Origin: Desulfurobacteriaceae bacterium
Lineage (GTDB): Bacteria > Aquificota > Aquificia > Desulfurobacteriales > Desulfurobacteriaceae
Direction of reading: 5' to 3'
DNA: 61,829 nucleotides
Assembly: GCA_027068415.1 (NCBI GenBank)
Contig: JAMOTD010000017.1
Span: 67,074-128,902, forward strand
This document shows, piece by piece, positions 13,668-42,688 of this stretch (within the stretch, counting starts at the first letter, position 1; the number at the start of each line of letters is the position of its first letter). The notes below the pieces were generated by a model that ran no database searches, was not told the DNA's origin, and saw only the letters and a program-made list of their open reading frames with translations. The position numbers and the translations under genes are program-made.

Positions 13668-14252
13668 TCAGAGGTGGAGGATGTACTTCCCTTTCGGTGA
13701 GGAGACCTCTTCAAGGCCTATGAAGGTTGTTTCTCCCACCTTCTCCTTCTTGTACTCTCGGGCGGGGTAGAAGACGAACTTGGGCTTTGTCTCCTCAACA
13801 ATCCTCTTTATGGGCGGTTTCTCCGGAGAGTCTGCAAGGGCCAAAAAGTCAAGCCTCTCAATGGGAGAGTTCTTAAAAGGTATTAAGAGGCCGTCGTAGT
13901 CTTCCTTGAATAGGTAGTTTCTCTTTTTTCTCTCTATTTTTCCCTTTGCCCTAATCCACTCCTGCCGGGTAAACTTCTCGGTTGAGGGGTGGTAAACGCC
14001 GCTTAAACCGCTGAAGGTTATTCCCTCTTTTGTTCTGAAAATCCTTGAGAGAATGTCTATTCCGTCGCTCTTTGAGAGGACTTCAAGAGAGTCTGTGGCG
14101 CCCCTTACGAAGAACCAGCTTTTGCCCAGCTTTAAAGGCTCTTTTAGCTCAAGGGGGCCGATTACGGCTATAAGCTCGGGCTGGGCCACCTCTATAAGGC
14201 CTTTTAACCTCTCAACGTTTCCTTTTAAAGGGCCTGTTATAAGGGCTTTCAT
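13668..14252 (-). CDS. Degenerate metallophosphoesterase-like protein
   Basis: A 194-residue protein. I start it at the internal ATG 14252, which has GGAG 8 bases upstream, rather than 10 codons earlier. The order of blocks resembles the metallophosphoesterase domain of lariat-debranching (Dbr1) and Cwf19-like proteins: KGNVERLKGL near residue 10, AVIGPLEL, WFFVRGATDS, then GITFSGLSGVYHPSTEKFTR. The metal-binding residues are missing: GP replaces GD and RGATD replaces GNHE. It is therefore probably non-catalytic. It lies 39 bases upstream of gltB on the same strand. The family assignment is by eye only. Confidence 0.5.
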   Translation of the reverse strand: MKALITGPLKGNVERLKGLIEVAQPELIAVIGPLELKEPLKLGKSWFFVRGATDSLEVLSKSDGIDILSRIFRTKEGITFSGLSGVYHPSTEKFTRQEWIRAKGKIERKKRNYLFKEDYDGLLIPFKNSPIERLDFLALADSPEKPPIKRIVEETKPKFVFYPAREYKKEKVGETTFIGLEEVSSPKGKYILHL

Positions 14253-14361
14253 CTCTGTCTCCGGTGAAGTTTTGTTTCTCAATTATAGTTGCTCTGGCGT
14301 CAGAAATTTTGAGGGAGCTCCGTTAATAACAGGTGGACAGATTTTGAGAGGAGGAAAGAAG

Positions 14362-30892: not shown

Positions 30893-31287
30893 CTCTAAAT
30901 CCCGCTCAAATTTTCGGGCATTTCAACCATTTTTCTGAAATTGAATTACACCCGTTGAGCAAACAGTCGCAATCCCGCTCATTTTTTCGGGCCTTTCAAC
31001 GTAGTTTACATCATCAATCTTTAAAACTAAATAAATGTCGCAATCCCGCTCATTTTTTCGGGCCTTTCAACGAAGATGGCTGAAGTAAGAATCAAAAAAG
31101 TCTCAAGTCGCAATCCCGCTCATTTTTTCGGGCCTTTCAACAGGAGACGGGTGGACTTTAAGCTTGGACTGCACAAGTCGCAATCCCGCTCATTTTTTCG
31201 GGCCTTTCAACAAAAACTCTAAAGGAGGTGTGAAATGATGAACGAGAAAATTGTCGCAATCCCGCTCATTTTTTCGGGCCTTTCAAC
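30893..31287 (-). CRISPR. CRISPR array, five intact repeats plus one degenerate
   Basis: The 35-base repeat on the plus strand starts GTCGCAATCCCGCTC and ends TTTTTTCGGGCCTTTCAAC. Intact copies start at 30966, 31037, 31107, 31177 and 31253; spacers are 36, 35, 35 and 41 bases. A degenerate copy ends at 30927, with a 38-base spacer after it. Because the decayed repeat marks the trailer, the array should be read on the minus strand from a leader above 31287; the repeat then starts GTTGAAAGGCCCG and leaves the 8-base 5' handle ATTGCGAC on the crRNA. CCCG...CGGG can form a small stem. It lies 181 bases from the Lon-SAVED gene. Confidence 0.95.
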
Positions 31288-31468: not shown

Positions 31469-32860
31469 CTAAGGGCTGTCTACTTTCTCTAATTTCGGGA
31501 GCTCCAAAACCGGTAAGTAGTCTCTCTTCTCCTTAAAATACTGCCACACCTTTATTGGCCAGTAGTTATCCACCGCCATACCGAGGGCAAAGGCAATCGC
31601 AACCGGAACGCTCATTAAGAGGTTTATCTCTTCGTATTCTGAGGAGTTGTAGACTCTGTTCATCACCTCGTAGGCTTCGGCAACGGTCTCCTCCCACTCT
31701 GAAGGCTCTTTGGGGAGAGCTCCTTTGTTTTTGTGCTCGGCGTAGAAAAAGTCGGCATCAAGCTCCTCTGCCAGAGCTCTTGCCCTCTTTTCGGTTTCGT
31801 GTGAGGCTATTTGAAGCGCTACTACGGCTTTCTTTTTCCCTTTTAACTCCGATTTCATAGTGAACCTTGAGAGTGTGCGGATTCTTCTCTTTATCTTCCT
31901 TGGGGAGTCTATAAGGTCTATTAGCTTATAGTAGTTCTGGTTCTCAAAGTGATATATAGCTAAAGGAATCTTTCCCGCTCCTAAGGTTGCTCCTATTGCA
32001 AATGCCAGGGCCGATGGAGCTCTGATTCCCAAGTGGATTTTGGCCTTTATGGGAGAGTAGGTCAACTCTCTTACTTCTCTCAAGCTCTCTACTACTCTTT
32101 TAACGAACTCTTCCCATCTACCGGCAGGGAGCTTCGGAGGTAAAACTACGCTTAACCTTTCTCCGTCTAATCCTTTAACGGTTTTAACTCCCGCTGTCTC
32201 TTGTAGAAGTTTAAATGTTGCTTTTACCTCCTCGTAAGGTATAGTTGCTATTAAGAAGGGTAGCTCAATCTCTTTTTGGCTGAGGAGAGTGTGGAGCTCC
32301 TTTACATTCCCCTTCCAGATTAGGAACTTTCTGAGCTTTCTTGCAAGCTTCCTCTTCTCTTTAACTCTGTCGGCGATGAAGTCTCCTGAGCTTTCAAGTT
32401 TTCCGCTTATTGCCACTTTCTCGGGAATTCCTCCGGCAAGTAGGGCGTAAGCCAGAGGAGCCTGGAATGAGCTCCCGCTAAAGTTTGTTTCTTCAAAGAA
32501 GACCGCCACTTCGCTGTTTAAAAACTCTTTAACCGGCTCAAGGGAGGCGTCTTTTTTGTTTTTTACCTCTTTGGAGCTCTTAAAGGCTATTGCCTTCACC
32601 ATTTTATTTTTAGAGCCCACTACGGGGAACTCAAACTCAACGGGCTCTGATAGGAGCTCTGCACCGATAACTTTTTCTAAAAACTCCCTATCCCTCTCAA
32701 GAGCTCCCTTCACAATCCAGTAGAGGATTTCGGGGTTTCCCGAGTTTGCGGCATAAAGGAGCTCTTCCCTTTTAAGCTCAACTTTATCCTCTACCCAATC
32801 CTTTAAAGCTGCAAGTGCCGCTGTAATTTTTCCCTCTTCTATAAGGCTCTTTAGAACCAT
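31469..32860 (-). CDS. Lon-SAVED cyclic-oligoadenylate-activated protease (CalpL-like)
   Basis: A 463-residue protein. Residues about 85-185 look like a Lon protease domain: NFSGSSFQAPLAYALLAGG places a nucleophile Ser at 131 (Lon PSAG position), and FIADRVKEKRKLA places the dyad Lys at about 167. Residues 270-463 are a SAVED domain: HLGIRAPSALAFAIGATLG, LAIYHFENQNYYKLIDL, VVALQIASHETEKRARAL and MSVPVAIAFALGMAVDNYWP. This is the architecture of CalpL from Sulfurihydrogenibium, which binds cyclic tetra-adenylate made by Cas10 and then cuts CalpT. Its start overlaps the stop of the CalpT-like gene by one base. The dyad assignment is by alignment to Lon in my head. Confidence 0.83.
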   Translation of the reverse strand: MVLKSLIEEGKITAALAALKDWVEDKVELKREELLYAANSGNPEILYWIVKGALERDREFLEKVIGAELLSEPVEFEFPVVGSKNKMVKAIAFKSSKEVKNKKDASLEPVKEFLNSEVAVFFEETNFSGSSFQAPLAYALLAGGIPEKVAISGKLESSGDFIADRVKEKRKLARKLRKFLIWKGNVKELHTLLSQKEIELPFLIATIPYEEVKATFKLLQETAGVKTVKGLDGERLSVVLPPKLPAGRWEEFVKRVVESLREVRELTYSPIKAKIHLGIRAPSALAFAIGATLGAGKIPLAIYHFENQNYYKLIDLIDSPRKIKRRIRTLSRFTMKSELKGKKKAVVALQIASHETEKRARALAEELDADFFYAEHKNKGALPKEPSEWEETVAEAYEVMNRVYNSSEYEEINLLMSVPVAIAFALGMAVDNYWPIKVWQYFKEKRDYLPVLELPKLEKVDSP

Positions 32861-33681
32861 TACTCCTTTACCTCAACTTTTAGTCTTGAGAGAGCTCCGA
32901 AAGCTTTTTTGCTGATTCCCCTTACAGTTAAAACTTTGGGAAGGACTCCCCAGAAAATAGGAACTTCTCCCTCTGGGGTTTCTATTTTTACCTCACCCTC
33001 TTTTCCCCTTAAGTTCTCGTCAATTACAATCTCTACGGTTTCCGGAGTGAAGACTGCAACTGCTCCTTTTCCTTCTATTACTCTTCTATCGGAAGCAGCG
33101 GCAACTTCAAGGGCTGCAGTTTCTTCAAGGAGGCTCCTGATAAATTTCGGGATTTTAACCTCTTGGGCAATACTCTTTGAGCTTTTCTCGGCTTCGTCAA
33201 TTGACGATAGGAGCTCTTCAACTAAAAACTTGTAGCGTTTGTACTCAAAGTCTTTGAATTTTTCGTGGATTACATCATCATATCCCCTTCCTCTTTTCTC
33301 TTTAGGCAAGGGAGCTTCTCCCTTTAATGTTTTCTTTAAAATTCTTAAATCTTCATCTTTTAGCTTTCCTATGAGCTCTGCTTCCTTTAAAAGCTTTTTA
33401 GGGGTGCTTGCGGCAAGGTCTGTCTGGACTATCCAGATATCGGAAAATGGATGAGGGAGCTCAACGATAAGGTCGTGTCTGGTGGCTAAAGGCCAGCAGA
33501 AGGAAAGAGGAGCCACTTCAACGAAGCTTCCCTCTTTATTGATTACTGCAACAAAAAGGGGCTCGTCGGCCGGCAGCCTGTAAACGCCCCCTTCAATAAC
33601 TTCCCCGCAAGAGGCGGTAGGAGTTTTCTCGTACATCTCAACCATTTTTATGTAATCCTCCAGGATATCCTCAAGCCTCAT
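32860..33681 (-). CDS. CalpT-like cleavable anti-sigma protein
   Basis: A 273-residue protein. ATG 33681 is chosen for the CAGGAGGAAAA site before it; the frame is open 14 codons further but inside the sigma gene. The N-terminal half has a beta-rich MazF-like feel (GEVIEGGVYRLPADEPLFVA, VEVAPLSFCWPLATRHDLIV). The middle is a charged linker (KGEAPLPKEKRGRGYDDV), and the C-terminal half has another alpha/beta domain (IEGKGAVAVFTPETVEIVID). In the characterised system CalpT holds the sigma factor until CalpL cleaves it. Identity rests on size, fold feel and gene order between the sigma and protease genes. Confidence 0.72.
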   Translation of the reverse strand: MRLEDILEDYIKMVEMYEKTPTASCGEVIEGGVYRLPADEPLFVAVINKEGSFVEVAPLSFCWPLATRHDLIVELPHPFSDIWIVQTDLAASTPKKLLKEAELIGKLKDEDLRILKKTLKGEAPLPKEKRGRGYDDVIHEKFKDFEYKRYKFLVEELLSSIDEAEKSSKSIAQEVKIPKFIRSLLEETAALEVAAASDRRVIEGKGAVAVFTPETVEIVIDENLRGKEGEVKIETPEGEVPIFWGVLPKVLTVRGISKKAFGALSRLKVEVKE

Positions 33682-33701
33682 TTTTCCTCCTGACAACTTC
33701 T

Positions 33702-34316
33702 TTAACGGAATCTCTTCTGACATTCTGACAGTAGAAGCTGACCGAAGATTCCGGCCTCTTCCCCGTCAAAGTCAAACTCCTTTAAGAGCTTTTCTACCTT
33801 CGGCCGAAGTCTGCTCCACGCTTTATCCCTTGCATTTCTTGATTTATCCTTTAAGTACAGGTTCTCTTCCTTTTTGTATAGGGCCGAGTGGACTCTGTAG
33901 CAGAGGATTTCAAACTCTTTCTCCGTTAGCTCTTTCTTTAGGAGCTCCACTGCTTCCCGGGCGTTTAAGAGGGCAATTACATTGAATGGGCTCGCTTCTA
34001 AGCGCTCTTCAAGCGGTTTTTCTTCCTCTTCCCGTTTCTCGGAAATACTGACCGTTTCAAAGCTCTTTCTCCTAAGATACCTGTCTATAAGTCTGTTCCT
34101 TACGGATATAATGAGGAATGAGAGGTTAAGCTCTTTGCGGCTGCAGAACTCCTTTCGCTTTTCAAAGAGAATTAGGGCTATCTCCGAGACCAAATCATCA
34201 AACTCCAGTTTGGTGCTGAACTCCTTTTGAATTATTCCGGCAATCTTTCGGGAGAGCTCTTCAATCTCCTCTCCCTTCCCTTTACAGAGTTTCTCCTTAA
34301 TCCTCTCCGCACTCAT
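33702..34316 (-). CDS. ECF-like sigma factor (CalpS-like)
   Basis: A 204-residue sigma factor. Region 2 is visible as KLEFDDLVSEIALILFEKRK and LSFLIISVRNRLIDRYLRR (the -10-binding and melting helix). Region 4 is near ELTEKEFEILCYRVHSALYK and KSRNARDKAWSRLRPKVEKL, where the helix-turn-helix should lie. ATG 34316 is preferred to the TTG directly before it. It overlaps the upstream unknown gene by 20 bases and is followed by the CalpT-like gene. Freed CalpS is thought to redirect RNA polymerase to stress or defence genes; its target promoters are unknown. Confidence 0.8.
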   Translation of the reverse strand: MSAERIKEKLCKGKGEEIEELSRKIAGIIQKEFSTKLEFDDLVSEIALILFEKRKEFCSRKELNLSFLIISVRNRLIDRYLRRKSFETVSISEKREEEEKPLEERLEASPFNVIALLNAREAVELLKKELTEKEFEILCYRVHSALYKKEENLYLKDKSRNARDKAWSRLRPKVEKLLKEFDFDGEEAGIFGQLLLSECQKRFR

Positions 34317-34722
34317 CAAGCAACCTCTTCTTTATTTCTTCTTTACACGTTCCGCAGGGTAGGCTTGCAAGCCTATCTTTCAGAAACCTCACTGGTATTG
34401 TAAATAGGCAATTACCGCTGTTTAAGTCAACGAAAACAAAGGAGGTTATTTTCTTAACCTCTTTATAACGTCCGACCGTACACTCTCTTCCTATCTCTAC
34501 CTTAGGCTGTCTCGGGAAGAGCTTTTTGGTTGATAAGAAAACAACTTTAGCTACCTCAAGCTTTTCACCTTCAGCTTCCAAAAACTCAAGTACTATTCCC
34601 GGTCGGCGCTCTTTTTTTAAGTCGGCTTTGATTTCTTTTGAGAGCTCCCTTGCCCTTAGAAAGTACCACAGGCAGGGAGTTTTTCTCTCTTTTAGACAAA
34701 GGGCTTCAACAAGTTGCTCCAA
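34297..34722 (-). CDS. Unknown 141-residue protein heading the Calp operon
   Basis: The first gene of the minus-strand operon, starting TTG with GGAGGGGAAAA upstream. It begins MEQLVEALCLKERKTPCLWY, has a beta-rich middle (GIVLEFLEAEGEKLEVAKVV, then CTVGRYKEVKKITSFVFVDL) and ends with a short Cys motif PCGTCKEEIKKRLLDEC. The six cysteines could bind a metal. I recognise no family. The 20-base overlap with the sigma gene implies translational coupling and a shared role. Confidence 0.75.
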   Translation of the reverse strand: MEQLVEALCLKERKTPCLWYFLRARELSKEIKADLKKERRPGIVLEFLEAEGEKLEVAKVVFLSTKKLFPRQPKVEIGRECTVGRYKEVKKITSFVFVDLNSGNCLFTIPVRFLKDRLASLPCGTCKEEIKKRLLDECGED

Positions 34723-34743
34723 TTTTCCCCTCCGGCGTCAGCC

Positions 34744-34772
34744 TTTACAGCTTTTCTCCGTTTTAGTATAAA
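34744..34772 (+). promoter_or_regulatory. Promoter of the csm operon (plus strand)
   Basis: TTTACA (34744-34749) and TATAAA (34767-34772) are spaced exactly 17 bases, close to the sigma-70 consensus. The csm1 ATG is 34 bases downstream of the -10 box. Confidence 0.65.
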
Positions 34773-34806: not shown

Positions 34807-37383
34807 ATGGAAAGAGAGAAACTCCACCTGGCTACCCTTACAGCCCTCTTTCACGATATAGGTAAGTTCTACCAGAGGACTCAGGATAACCCCAGGAAAA
34901 GAAAGCACTACCAGTTTTCTGCCGACTTTTTAAAGGAAAAAAGGGAAAAGATAAAGAGGCTGTTTAACTTAACCGACGAAGAGTTTGAGGCCCTAAAGAA
35001 GGCGGTAGAGAGACACCATGGAAGGTTAACTCCCTCTGAGCCTCTACCTTTTATAGTTCAATCTGCCGACTGGCTTAGCTCGGGTCTTGACAGGGTTTCA
35101 ATAGACGAAGAGGCCTTTGTTGAAGGAAAAAACCCGGAAGACGACAAAGGGATTTACAAGCTCTTAGTCTCTCCCTTTGCCCTGATTAAGATAAAGCAGA
35201 AGGATAAGGCCTACCACCCCTGCATCACCCACCTTAAAGAGGAGAGAACTTGGGGATACAAGTTTAAGGAGCTCACCTCCGAAAATCTCTTTCCCGTAAA
35301 GGAGGGGGAGTACCCAATTGAGGAGAGGAAAAGAGACTACAAGGAGCTCTGGAAGAAGTTTTTAAGAGAGTTTGATGAGCTCCCTGAAAGCGGAGACTTT
35401 AACTTTAGGTTTGAGACCCTCAGAGCTCTCTTTCTCAAGTACATGTGGTGCGTTCCATCCTACACCTACGCAAAGAAGAGAATTGCGCTACCCGACGTCT
35501 CCCTTGCCCACCACCTTTTAACTTCTGCTGCAATTGCAACTGCTCTGTGGAAGTACGAAGAAAGTAAAGGTTTTGACCCTAAAAGCCTAAAGAGTAAGGA
35601 TGTGGAGAAGTTTATCTTTCTCAGCGTTGACTTTTCGGGAATTCAGAGCTTCATCTTCAGCCCTCCGAAGGATACAAAAAAGTGGGCGGCGAAAATTCTC
35701 AGGGCCCGCTCTTTCATTGTCTCCTTGGCACTGGAAACGGTTGTAAACAGGCTTTTGGAGGCGTTTGGAGTAAACGCCTCAAGTCTCTTAATGAACGCCG
35801 GAGGAAAGGCTTGGCTTCTTCTTCCAAACCTGTCTGATGCTGAGGATAGGATAGAAGAGGTTAGAAAAGAGGTCGTTGAGGCTCTTTTAAGCAGCGAAAA
35901 GAACTTCTTTGGGGAGGTGAAGTTAAAGATTGCCTACTTGGAGCTCCCTCCCAGACGGCTCCACCTGAAAAACTTTGGAAAGATAGTTGAGGAGCTTACC
36001 CAGAAGGAGGCCGAGGCTAAGTTTAGGCTCTTTAAGCCTGAGGACTTTTCCAAATTGATAATAAGTGGCTACTGTGGAAGGGTTTCTGAGGGGGACGAGA
36101 GCAAAAAGCTCTGCCCGGTTTGCGGAAAGGCTCCGGCAAGTGAGGAGCTCTACGGTGAAAAGGTCTGCTCCCTCTGTAAGTACCTGATTGAACTAGGGGA
36201 GAAACTGCCAAAGAGCGACTACGCAAAGGTTTCATTTAAAAGTTCCTCCTACTTTCCCCTTCCGGAGGTGGAGCTTTTTAAGTGTGATTTAGAAGAAAAG
36301 CTGAAGGAGCTAAAGGAGGGCGAAAAGATTTACTCCTTTACGACAAAAACTTCCCGTCCTCTACCCCTTAAACCCCTTGAAAACGCCGTTCCTATTTACG
36401 ACAAGGAAAAGGAGAGGGACGAGCTTAAGGAGCTGGTAGAAAAGTGCTACGAAGGGGAAAAGGCGCAGGAGTTCGTCGGGAAGCCCAAAAACTTCTGCCA
36501 CATAGGCCTCTATGCTCTCAAAAAGTCTGAAGGCTCCTTTTGTGGAAGACCCTTTCTTGGGGTTTTGAAAGCCGACGTTGACAACTTGGGGTACATCTTC
36601 GCCAAGGGCTTTGTAAGGGCACCTGAAAGCGACGGAGACGAGGAGTGTAGGGGCTCAATCCACTCTCTCTCAAGGCTTCTGCAACTTAGCTGGTTCTTAG
36701 ACTTTTTCTTCTCCGAGGTTGTAAGGGAGAAGATTGTGAAAGAGAAGTTTGAGAACATTTACAGCGTTTTTTCCGGGGGCGACGACCTCTTTTTCATAGG
36801 GCCCTGGGAGGATGTTCTTAAATTTGAGGGAGCTCTGAGAGAGGAGTTTAAAGAGTTCACCTGCAGGAACGATAGCTTCACCCTTTCTGTAGGAATAGCC
36901 GTCGTTAAGCCCAACCTTCCAATCTACGCCTTTGCAGAAGAAGCCGAGGAGGCCCTTGAGCGCTCAAAGAGGGAAGGGAAAAACTCCACCACACTCTTTG
37001 ACAGGAGAGTTGACTACAGGGAATTCACCCTTAAAGAGCTCCTAGAGGTTGCCGACGAAATAGTTAAGCGTGCCGGAGACTGTGCAGACGCAAGGAAGAT
37101 TTCCAACTCCTTCCTCTACAAGCTTTTAACACTGTCAGAAATGGCGAATAACGAAGGTAAGAGCGTTAAAAATCTTCTATGGAGGGCCTACCTCAGGTAC
37201 TTAACCTCAAGAAACTTTAAGAAAGAGGATGCTGAGGAGTTCTTTAAGGAGTTTGAGAAGTGGATTAGGAAGTACTCAGAGAACATTTCAGAGGAAGAAA
37301 AGAAGGGTAAAGACAACCTCTTTTACATACCACTTGCAATAGCAATTTACAGGAGGAGGAGATATGAGAGCTCAGCACAGTAA
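34807..37383 (+). CDS. csm1: Type III-A CRISPR Cas10/Csm1
   Basis: An 858-residue Cas10. ATG 34807 follows GGAGGGAGA; the longer open frame upstream is not used. The N-terminal HD nuclease motif is LFHDIGKF (His16, Asp17) with a later ERHHGRL. A zinc finger starts at Cys436 (LCPVCGKAP ... VCSLCKYL). The palm domain has the intact catalytic GGDD at residues 657-660 (FSGGDDLFF), so it should make cyclic oligoadenylates when target RNA is bound. Both DNase and cyclase sites look intact. It leads the csm1-5 operon. Confidence 0.95.
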   Translation: MEREKLHLATLTALFHDIGKFYQRTQDNPRKRKHYQFSADFLKEKREKIKRLFNLTDEEFEALKKAVERHHGRLTPSEPLPFIVQSADWLSSGLDRVSIDEEAFVEGKNPEDDKGIYKLLVSPFALIKIKQKDKAYHPCITHLKEERTWGYKFKELTSENLFPVKEGEYPIEERKRDYKELWKKFLREFDELPESGDFNFRFETLRALFLKYMWCVPSYTYAKKRIALPDVSLAHHLLTSAAIATALWKYEESKGFDPKSLKSKDVEKFIFLSVDFSGIQSFIFSPPKDTKKWAAKILRARSFIVSLALETVVNRLLEAFGVNASSLLMNAGGKAWLLLPNLSDAEDRIEEVRKEVVEALLSSEKNFFGEVKLKIAYLELPPRRLHLKNFGKIVEELTQKEAEAKFRLFKPEDFSKLIISGYCGRVSEGDESKKLCPVCGKAPASEELYGEKVCSLCKYLIELGEKLPKSDYAKVSFKSSSYFPLPEVELFKCDLEEKLKELKEGEKIYSFTTKTSRPLPLKPLENAVPIYDKEKERDELKELVEKCYEGEKAQEFVGKPKNFCHIGLYALKKSEGSFCGRPFLGVLKADVDNLGYIFAKGFVRAPESDGDEECRGSIHSLSRLLQLSWFLDFFFSEVVREKIVKEKFENIYSVFSGGDDLFFIGPWEDVLKFEGALREEFKEFTCRNDSFTLSVGIAVVKPNLPIYAFAEEAEEALERSKREGKNSTTLFDRRVDYREFTLKELLEVADEIVKRAGDCADARKISNSFLYKLLTLSEMANNEGKSVKNLLWRAYLRYLTSRNFKKEDAEEFFKEFEKWIRKYSENISEEEKKGKDNLFYIPLAIAIYRRRRYESSAQ

Positions 37384-39557: not shown

Positions 39558-40766
39558 ATGAGAAGTGAACCCGTTTCAATTAAAGTTCGCCTGAAAGTTA
39601 AAACGCCAACGGCAATTGGCACCGGAGAGAGCTATACTCTCTTCAGCTACGCTGTAAAGGAGAGAGAGCTTTTAGTAATCAACTTTAAAAAGCTGATAGA
39701 GAAGTTAAAGTCCACAGGGAGGTTGGGCGAGTTTAAGGAGCTCCTTAAAAGGTTTACGCCCTTTGACGTCGTCAAACTTCAAAACTTCTACTCTCGGGTA
39801 GTAGGTCGGGACGAGGCAATAGCAGTTTTAAAGCTTGAGCCAGAAGTTGCAGAGTACTTTAAGGGGAAGTTTGCGAGGTTAGCCGAGCTTTTAAGGGGAA
39901 GGAACTTCAAAGAGTATTTTGAGGAGCTTGGGGCCGCTGAAGTAAGAGAGGCTTTTAAGAATCCGCTAACCGGGAAAGCTTACATTCCCGGTTCAAGCCT
40001 TAAGGGGGCCATAAGAACCTCGCTACTCAACTACTTGATTAAGAAGGGCAAGATAGACAAGGAAAAATTTATAGGGGAACTCCAAAGGGCTTTTAATCAG
40101 GTTGGCCTTCACTGGCCGGGAGTTTACTCCAGGGAAGAGCTCCCAACAAACTTCGGAGAGCTTGAGAAAGCGCTGAAGAGGATTTTTAACGAGATAGATT
40201 CCCACCTCCTCTGTGATTTCCTGACGGCAGTTGATTCCTCTGACTTCGGAAGGGACTTAATGAGGTTTGTAAAAGTTTCCGATTTCTCTCCGACAGGGGA
40301 AGTTTCCACTTCAGTCGGAAGGCTCAGAAGAGTAAGCAGAAAGGGTAAGGAAAATGCCTTTGGTTTTGTTGAGTTCGTTGAACCGGGAGCTCTCTTTGAG
40401 GGAACCATTACTTTCTACCCTGAATTTATTGAGAAGTACGCAGAGTGTCCCTTAAAGGTTAACCCCCAGCTGGTGGTTAAGGCCCTTAGAAGTGAGTACT
40501 CAAAGGTTCTCCGTTGGGAAAGGGATTTTCTGGGGAAATCTCCTCTGCCCTTTACTAAAGAGGAGGTAAAGCTCTACCAGAGGGAGAACTCTCCGCTTGC
40601 CCCGATTAAACTCGGTTTTGGAGCCGGAGCTCTCTCTAAAACCTTCTCAGACGCTCCCGAGCTTAGGGTAATAGGAAACAGGCACACGGGAATCAGGCCG
40701 GAACCTACCGAAATTTCGGTAATGAGAGGCAGGCCGATGGGCTGGTGTCTTCTGGAGGTCTGCTGA
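39558..40766 (+). CDS. csm5: Type III-A CRISPR RAMP Csm5
   Basis: A 402-residue Csm5, which caps the 3' end of the crRNA and helps its trimming. ATG 39558 follows GGTAGGGAG; the open frame begins 5 codons earlier without a site. It has an N-terminal KTPTAIGTGES loop, the RAMP block NPLTGKAYIPGSSLKGAIRT near residues 135-154 and a helical middle. The C-terminus reads IRPEPTEISVMRGRPMGW. Its TGA overlaps the ATG of the PLD-HerA gene by one base (TGATG). Confidence 0.92.
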   Translation: MRSEPVSIKVRLKVKTPTAIGTGESYTLFSYAVKERELLVINFKKLIEKLKSTGRLGEFKELLKRFTPFDVVKLQNFYSRVVGRDEAIAVLKLEPEVAEYFKGKFARLAELLRGRNFKEYFEELGAAEVREAFKNPLTGKAYIPGSSLKGAIRTSLLNYLIKKGKIDKEKFIGELQRAFNQVGLHWPGVYSREELPTNFGELEKALKRIFNEIDSHLLCDFLTAVDSSDFGRDLMRFVKVSDFSPTGEVSTSVGRLRRVSRKGKENAFGFVEFVEPGALFEGTITFYPEFIEKYAECPLKVNPQLVVKALRSEYSKVLRWERDFLGKSPLPFTKEEVKLYQRENSPLAPIKLGFGAGALSKTFSDAPELRVIGNRHTGIRPEPTEISVMRGRPMGWCLLEVC

Positions 40767-42688
40767 TGGAGATTTTAACCAGCGACCAAATTTACGGTAA
40801 GATAGAGGAGCTCGTAAAAAGGGCTGAAGTTTCTATCTGGCTCTCTTCAGCTTGGCTTAAAAGTAGCGTTCTTGAGAGGCTTTTTGCTCAGGTTCCGGAA
40901 AATACTAAAGACTTAAAAGTTGTTTTAAGGGCTTCAGAGCTTCAGGATTTGCTCATTACCGACGAGAAGGTTTTTGAGATTTTAAGAAAGTGGGAAATCT
41001 ACCTCCATCCCCGCCTTCACGCGAAGTTTATCCTTGTAGACGGCAGGTACGCCGTTGTCGGCTCTGCCAACTTTACCTATTCGGGGCTTTCAGAGTTCTC
41101 AAAGGGGAACGTTGAGGCGGCCGTTTACTACGATGAAACCGATGACCCGGAAGAGGTTGAGAAGCTTAAAAACTATTTCATAGATATAGTAGAGAGTAAA
41201 GAGACTTTCAGGGTTGACGGCTCTCTGGTCGGCTTTGCAATGAATCCGGTAAAGTCCCGCTCCTTTGAGTTTGTTGCCCTTGAGGAGGTTAAAGAGCAGG
41301 ATTATGTAGAAATCAGAGACGGTGATAGAAAACTAATAGGGAGAGTTCTGGAGCTCTACTCCTACGATATGGACTTTTTTGCAAATCCCTTCACCGCCGG
41401 GGAGTCTCCCGTTTTCGGCTCTTTGGATACTTTTAAGCTCCTCTTTGCTAAAGGTGAGAATTCCGACTGGAAAAAGGCTGCTGTTTGGGCCTACCTTAAC
41501 GACAACGGAGCTAAACTTAAGCTTGCGGTTGCAAGTGTTGTAGGTGAATTAAAAGAGGATAAACTTGAGACCTCTCTCTCTCCCGTTTCGGTGGGCTCGC
41601 CCGTTTTTAAACTTTCTGAGGATGATATTTCTTCCCTTTTGAGGAAAAACTTCTCGGGCGCAGATATGGTTAGACCGGTGAAAGTTGGGAAGTTGGTGGG
41701 GAGCTCCGCCGAGGCCTTTATTGATGCCTCGGAGGTTCTTTCTAAACACCTGTTGGTTTTAGGAACCACCGGCTCGGGTAAGAGCTACTTTACGAAACTC
41801 TTCCTCAAGAGGCTGTTGGAGGCCGACCCTGAGGTGAAAGTTTTTATCCTTGACCCCCACGGTGAGTACAGGGAAGGGCTTGGTTCTTCCGCTATTGAGG
41901 AGCTCACCGTTGAAGACCTGCTTCTGCCGGTTTTTCCAGAAGAGGTTGAGGAGCTAATAAAGCAGGAGGGAGGGTCCTCCCTGATTTCCGGGAACTCAAA
42001 GGAGGCTTCTAAGAACAGGTCTTTAATCTCAAAGGCCGTTAGGCCTTCCCTCGGCCTTACCGCTTTTAGGGAGAAGAGCTTAAGGGAATTGATAAGGGAG
42101 TTTTCAGATAGAAACAACGAGAAGGAGGCTCTCCTCTCTTCCCTTTCTGATGTATATGACGGTCAGCCGAACCTTGTCAGAGCTCTTGAGAGAGCTCTCA
42201 ACTCGGCGAGCAGAGTTGTGATTTTTAACTTTAAAAGGGTTAGTGAGCCCTCTACGAGGGTTAACGTTGCCGGCCTTGTGATGAGGGAGCTCTTTGAGAG
42301 GGCCAAGAGGGGAGATATCGGAAAGACCTTCCTCGTTCTTGAGGAGGCCCACAGCTTTGCCCCCGAAAGGGGATTCGGAGATACCTCTGCCGGAAGGGAT
42401 AACTTGGCCTTGACTATGGCCAGGAAAATAGCCTCCGAGGGGAGGAAGTTTAACTTGGGGCTCGGCGTTATAACGCAGAGGCCGGCTCAGGTAAGTAAGT
42501 ACGTTCTCTCCCAGACCAACACTCAAGTAATGTTCCGAACAATTAACTCTTCGGACCTTGACGTTATCTCCTCTTTTGTTGAGTATGCAGGTGAGGACGT
42601 TGTCTCCCTTCTTCCGTCCCTTCAAACAGGAATGGGAGTTGTCTGCGGAATAGGAACTCCCTTCCCCCTGCTAATTAACGTTGAGTAA
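40766..42688 (+). CDS. PLD nuclease-HerA ATPase fusion, coupled to csm5
   Basis: A 640-residue fusion. Residues 1-145 are a phospholipase D-type nuclease domain with one HKD motif: HPRLHAKFILVDGRYAVVGS gives His85, Lys87, Asp92, Ser100 and Asn102. Residues about 160-300 form a HAS-barrel-like domain. The rest is a HerA/FtsK-type motor: Walker A GTTGSGKS at 333-340, ILDPHGEY, Walker B FLVLEEAHSF at 522-531, a sensor-like ITQRPAQVSKYVLSQTNTQV and an arginine-rich stretch. HerA motors pump DNA in repair (with NurA) or defence. No NurA is here; the PLD domain would be the built-in nuclease. One-base overlap with csm5 suggests co-translation. Not a standard Csm component. Confidence 0.88.
   Translation: MEILTSDQIYGKIEELVKRAEVSIWLSSAWLKSSVLERLFAQVPENTKDLKVVLRASELQDLLITDEKVFEILRKWEIYLHPRLHAKFILVDGRYAVVGSANFTYSGLSEFSKGNVEAAVYYDETDDPEEVEKLKNYFIDIVESKETFRVDGSLVGFAMNPVKSRSFEFVALEEVKEQDYVEIRDGDRKLIGRVLELYSYDMDFFANPFTAGESPVFGSLDTFKLLFAKGENSDWKKAAVWAYLNDNGAKLKLAVASVVGELKEDKLETSLSPVSVGSPVFKLSEDDISSLLRKNFSGADMVRPVKVGKLVGSSAEAFIDASEVLSKHLLVLGTTGSGKSYFTKLFLKRLLEADPEVKVFILDPHGEYREGLGSSAIEELTVEDLLLPVFPEEVEELIKQEGGSSLISGNSKEASKNRSLISKAVRPSLGLTAFREKSLRELIREFSDRNNEKEALLSSLSDVYDGQPNLVRALERALNSASRVVIFNFKRVSEPSTRVNVAGLVMRELFERAKRGDIGKTFLVLEEAHSFAPERGFGDTSAGRDNLALTMARKIASEGRKFNLGLGVITQRPAQVSKYVLSQTNTQVMFRTINSSDLDVISSFVEYAGEDVVSLLPSLQTGMGVVCGIGTPFPLLINVE

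Follow-up and report, generated by a model that had tools for sequence, protein, structure and literature searches.

Gene X, the first gene of the Calp operon in the stretch of Desulfurobacteriaceae DNA studied here (61,829 nucleotides, henceforth the window), is, we conclude with high confidence, a standard fourth component of Calp with a MazF-class fold. Its predicted structure and the MazF residues kept in its sequence point first to a ribonuclease, and the reading we favor, with a probability of about one half, is that X is a MazF-type endoribonuclease that would serve as the infection-induced effector arm of Calp. The Calp switch of these heat-loving bacteria may, on this combination of model and alignment, carry an RNA-cutting arm. 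The published CalpL/T/S complex is described as tripartite (PMC11417357), and the original prediction took the cascade to have three parts, to which the window would have added a fourth: our survey indicates instead that four genes are the rule.

Gene X in the window and across Calp loci

On the minus strand of the window four overlapping genes follow one another in the order X, CalpS-like sigma factor, CalpT and CalpL. These genes and the features around them are as follows:

30966–31287, minus strand (presumably, from the repeat orientation): CRISPR array with the repeat core in 5 copies, immediately 3′ of calpL
31469–32860, minus strand: CalpL-like SAVED-Lon protease (Pfam SAVED, 2.2e-17; PADLOC PDLC01159, 6.6e-74)
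32860–33723, minus strand: CalpT (anti-sigma), with an N-terminal predicted MazF-fold domain without the catalytic Arg
33702–34316, minus strand: CalpS-like sigma factor (Pfam Sigma70_r2, E 2.8e-5), with an ATG start and a TTG at 34319 possible
34297–34722, minus strand: gene X, at the head of the Calp operon (C3a162-like, predicted MazF fold, 141 aa, TTG start)
34737–34762, minus strand: ECF-like promoter motif (candidate) AACG-N16-GCTGAC, whose end is 14 nt from the start codon of X
34807–37383, plus strand: cas10 (Csm1-like), with HD and GGDD motifs present
40745–42688, plus strand: PLD-HerA fusion gene, 3′ of the type III genes

A GGAGGGG run lies just 5′ of the TTG start codon of X, and the C-terminal end of the protein reads ...LPCGTCKEEIKKRLLDECGED (ORF 34297–34722, minus strand). 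The overlap with the sigma gene amounts to 20 bases if the latter starts at the ATG at 34316 and to 23 bases if it starts at the alternative TTG at 34319. The neighbor on the other side is cas10, divergent from X, with 84 bp between the two. The 141-residue gene overlapping the sigma gene by 20 bases, as first proposed, is confirmed by the open reading frame, by positional homologues in many genomes and by the dN/dS ratios given below.

A first search, in which the window X protein was compared with 151 genomes, returned three relatives, all of one family and each 5′ of a sigma gene. A profile of these first relatives was next run against 136 genomes of the phylum: CalpL was found in 68 of them and a match to X (E ≤ 0.05) in 31, the weakest of these by chance. 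When the regions of the matches were annotated with iterated profiles, X proved to be the immediate upstream neighbor of sigma in 62 of the 63 Aquificota loci that could be assessed (another, interrupted by a contig end, falls outside the 63). The sole exception with room for the gene is L146, where a different gene lies upstream of sigma. Outside the Aquificota CalpL was present in only three genomes among 391 relatives. One of the three led to a small second phylum, in which 8 of 25 genomes have CalpL and the order X–S–T–L holds in 6 of 6 assessable loci, the X frame being broken in one. With both phyla pooled, 68 of 69 loci have X in this position; X is present in neither of the two Calp loci of other phyla (L189 and L190). 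Two entries do not count in the locus tally: L143, which duplicates the stretch of L112, and, at L102, where the sigma gene is split, its second half.

Counted from the side of X, a sigma gene lies just downstream in 73 of 76 cases, the other three being two contig-end cuts and one remnant. The overlap between the two genes is likewise general, with most loci between +3 and −31, and the proposal that the fourth gene is translationally coupled and linked to CalpS-like sigma genes is thus borne out. Two tandem X genes are present in four genomes (G033, G067, G088 and G126). Purifying selection is evident in all nine close pairs compared, with dN/dS values of 0.06–0.32 (calculated for stop-to-stop frames). 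The original prediction was to be given up if the gene were found widely without any link to CalpS-like or CRISPR genes, or if the frame were not conserved; neither occurred, the frame being conserved and X being tied to Calp.

The survey also covers the strain of the original three-part cascade. CalpL of genome G043 is identical over 494 residues to the CalpL of solved structure (7qda, 8b0u), whose source is given as Sulfurihydrogenibium sp. YO3AOP1 (PMC11417357), and X is found in G043 5′ of calpS, with a one-base stop–start overlap. X therefore belongs to the locus behind the three-part description, and its presence in the native operon suggests that a native part is missing from the published reconstitutions with three proteins. 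Far from being the extra gene that it was at first taken for, X is nearly universal in the Aquificota Calp loci seen.

Away from Calp no X was found in the 391 genomes save one truncated remnant and contig-cut copies, and none was found in phage and plasmid collections queried with the window protein and with the YO3AOP1-type protein. These data bear on the possibility that X is only a passenger of the operon, an old toxin gene that plays no part in Calp. That X is absent from L146 and from both loci of other phyla fits such a gene, and means that the Calp switch can run without X. Against it stand the near-absence of X elsewhere in the 391 genomes, its constant place in the loci of two phyla and the purifying selection, and we regard a passenger as very improbable.

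The remnant itself (L211, 4965–5213) belongs to genome G048, which has no CalpL match, and is probably what is left of a decayed Calp locus. Genome G017 has a second Calp locus, L137, with CalpT and CalpL and without sigma or X. In G088 (L088, 5239–7170) CalpT and CalpL share one 644-codon frame, which may be a fusion or reflect a lost stop codon.

Predicted fold and active-site residues of X

Neither X nor its family found a useful match in Pfam, NCBIfam, PHROGs or PDB sequences, and none of the 48 X rows has Pfam PemK (PF02452) among its matches at E ≤ 1. (Of 52 non-redundant X rows and 55 CalpT rows, four each were dropped from the alignments as partial or near copies.) The claim that the protein matches no family nonetheless does not hold: 14 of the 48 relatives match the PADLOC entry C3a162 (PDLC01080, ‘unknown function’; best 7.3e-55), and the YO3AOP1-type X matches it over nearly its whole length (E 7.2e-56). 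The window X gives no match to C3a162. The family was already known in part, as a nameless PADLOC entry: a profile match for some X, to which neither a fold nor a function nor a place in Calp was attached.

Structure prediction of X alone, which had been suggested as a check, gives a further answer to the same claim. The AlphaFold2 model, based on 48 family members, is confident (pLDDT 91.4, pTM 0.87), and the predicted fold is that of MazF. The top solved structures returned by Foldseek are MazF-mt3 and MazF-mt1, both weak (E 0.16 and 0.54). VIA-align also places MazF-mt1 first, with an rmsd of 3.7 over 107 residues and a Z of 8.6 that is only just above the best values usually reached by unrelated models; all 50 of the 50 matches listed belong to the MazF, Kid, CcdB or CptN-type toxins. 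In a viral structure library PemK-like proteins account for two of the eight best matches of the model.

At the level of sequence the similarity between X and MazF is weak (hhalign probability 15–35%). Aligned with a profile of 30 Aquificota MazF/PemK proteins (PF02452), the X profile obtained a score of 26.0, which none of 200 column shuffles reached (maximum 16.6) and which is by itself modest, because the unrelated long CalpL profile reaches 22.9. More telling than the score is the register of the alignment: made blind, it sets R40–P41 of X on the Arg-Pro of MazF and S64 on the MazF Thr.

Both R40 and P41 are present in 48 of 48 rows of the X family, and position 64 is Thr in 34 rows and Ser in 14, Ser being the residue in the window. 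In B. cereus MazF the matching Arg and Thr are reported to be required for RNase activity, and a natural MazF with Ser in place of Thr is reported to occur (PMC7354611); the same two residues are reported as required in MazF-sth (PMC10893535). X accordingly has in common with MazF/PemK/Kid (PF02452) the fold, as predicted, and the active-site Arg-Pro plus Thr/Ser. It differs from them in its want of a Pfam match, in its extra cysteines, in the sigma/anti-sigma/protease setting and in that no antitoxin gene was seen: the ORF lists of a subset of loci show no small partner gene by X, and in the window its neighbors are sigma on one side and cas10 on the other.

The cysteines form a C-x(n)-C and a CGxC motif that the family adds to the MazF features, with Cys in 47 of 48 rows at each of four columns; the window X is without the first of them, having E80 there. 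The PCGTC...DEC pattern pointed out at the start stands in part: CGxC is a family signature and the closing DEC is not. The four cysteines are probably a zinc site. Such a Cys4 site is unusual for MazF and could, we infer, be an RNA- or protein-binding knuckle. It raises the possibility that X, by way of the RNA groove of the MazF fold together with the Cys4 site, binds RNA (for example the mRNA of its operon, or CRISPR RNA) and does no cutting, acting as a post-transcriptional regulator. The kept active-site residues count in favor of binding of this kind; we consider it unlikely.

CalpT offers an instructive comparison. Residues 39–138 of the CalpT model have a MazF fold (VIA-align Z 10.2), and the CalpT family profile matches the CalpT10 fragment in PDB 8b0u (E 5.4e-14); the original Calp paper is said to have named CalpT as a MazF homologue. 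CalpT resembles X in the MazF fold and in the kept S/T, which is found in 51 of 51 rows, and differs from it in having a further C-terminal part (CalpT10) and no conserved Arg where MazF has its Arg-Pro. Since the S/T is invariant in a protein that has no such Arg, it is alone no proof of catalysis in X. No homology between X and CalpT was seen at the level of profiles, which do not align (probability 0.9%).

The same comparison provides the precedent for a different reading, in that a MazF fold of the same operon has turned into a non-catalytic sigma partner. X could be an RNase-inactive MazF-fold regulator that binds CalpS and/or CalpT and tunes the release of sigma, whether as a second anti-sigma, a sigma chaperone or a scaffold, and the gene overlap would then keep it stoichiometric with CalpS. 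The generality of that overlap is in keeping with this, as is the fact that X co-varies slightly more with CalpS and CalpT than with CalpL, in a signal that is weak throughout (partial r: X–T 0.28, X–S 0.27, X–L 0.19). However, an RNase-dead X is not expected to keep its Arg in 48 of 48 rows, and because CalpT has lost this very residue, its retention in X counts against such a protein; Calp loci without X also exist. We treat a regulator as possible while leaning against it. The roles suggested at the outset (regulator, chaperone of the sigma factor, second anti-sigma protein) have found no specific support, and structure and MazF residues favor a ribonuclease.

A candidate promoter motif in front of X

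The motif that precedes X in the window recurs, in the form A(A/T)CG-N16-(T/G)(C/T)TGAC, 5′ of X in 10 of 68 loci (the window, L225, L228, L231, L233, L245, L250, L254, L273 and L274) and is missing in the other 58. The upstream regions of L087, L143, L144 and L211 were left out of this comparison. A −10 box resembling TCTGA is typical of ECF sigma factors. When the spacing was varied, a gap of 16 was found in 10 loci, gaps of 10–15 and 17–22 in none and a gap of 23 in one; the strict form of the motif has no match on the opposite strand. An exact k-mer search 5′ of X returned AT-rich words only. The motif was spotted by eye before it was tested, and the evidence for it is thus post hoc. ECF factors are stated to autoregulate often (PMC10028731), and a motif in this position suggests control of X by CalpS; it constitutes a first handle on CalpS targets.

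The motif was also sought across whole genomes. In five genomes of the family of the window there are 23 sites as against 2 for the backward pattern; in five genomes of another family the numbers are 29 and 20, which indicates a high background for the motif there. The ten genomes of the window's family with CalpL contain 32 sites, of which 12 are CRISPR- or Calp-related: five at X, four at arrays (26, 116, 427 and 1019 nt upstream of them), two at cas1 and one at a gene next to a second Calp locus. The remaining 20 consist of five at sigma 3′ ends, 14 inside genes and one intergenic. The 12 genomes of this family without a CalpL match contain 17 sites; long frames enclose 16 of these, and none is at an array, cas1 or X. 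The difference (12 of 32 versus 0 of 17) has a Fisher p of 0.004, a value that stems from hand-assigned classes and from related genomes that are not independent.

A general promoter of cas1 was rejected as an explanation: 22 genomes of the family have 24 cas1 genes between them, and the motif is present at 2. Both motif-bearing cas1 genes adjoin a Calp locus, and neither is in the window's own genome; nor does the window's own CRISPR array have a motif site. The sites before X, before CRISPR arrays and before Calp-neighboring cas1 genes in some Calp genomes make up a candidate CalpS regulon.

The motif also occurs elsewhere. It is found antisense at the sigma 3′ end in the window (33704–33729, plus strand) and in G007, G010, G017, G020, G052, G066 and G122, where it probably reflects conserved coding (LLSE..R). 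At L137 in G017 it points away from the Calp locus, toward a 105-aa gene. A further window site (14299–14324, minus strand) is located 16 nt before a 204-aa ORF (13668–14282), upstream of a glutamate synthase gene; it lies inside a long opposite-strand frame and is probably due to chance.

A possible course of the Calp response

If X is a MazF-type endoribonuclease, the response could proceed as follows. In the resting cell there would be little X, and its operon partners would probably keep it sequestered, the simplest route being the pseudo-MazF domain of CalpT. Upon infection cA4 from Cas10 would activate CalpL and CalpT would be cut, a cleavage that has been published for SsCalpL (PMC11417357). 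Freed CalpS would transcribe its own operon from the ECF-like promoter before X; X would be made first, and its cutting of RNA would slow growth or phage. The release of CalpS is said to potentiate ‘an anti-viral transcriptional response’ (PMC11229360), and a conserved and probably catalytic MazF-like protein, as predicted here, bears on the output of the Calp response against phage.

A more speculative proposal, which we put forward as doubtful, is that the two MazF-fold proteins of Calp have split one toxin module between them, with CalpT, its catalytic arginine lost, as the anti-sigma brake and X, its active site kept, as the RNase, and that CalpS switches on X and, in several genomes, CRISPR arrays as well. 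If true, a single cA4 signal would lead both to growth arrest and to more CRISPR RNA through one promoter class (AACG-N16-TCTGAC).

No description of a fourth Calp gene was found in the literature searched, which did not cover the original Calp paper (doi 10.1038/s41586-022-05571-7); within the same scope, no mention was found of the near-universal place of X in Calp, its fold or its kept active site. The closest parallel in setting is provided by Csx31 of the type III-E CASP/Craspase system, described as a conserved fourth protein beside a protease, the anti-sigma substrate Csx30 and an ECF sigma, and termed a ‘potential third arm’ (PMC10028731). The comparison of X with Csx31 is one of gene setting.

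Two minor observations concern the surroundings of the operon in the window. The short CRISPR array that follows calpL could be co-transcribed with the Calp genes, and the PADLOC HerA models that match the PLD-HerA fusion gene include one labeled ‘Type III coevolved’.
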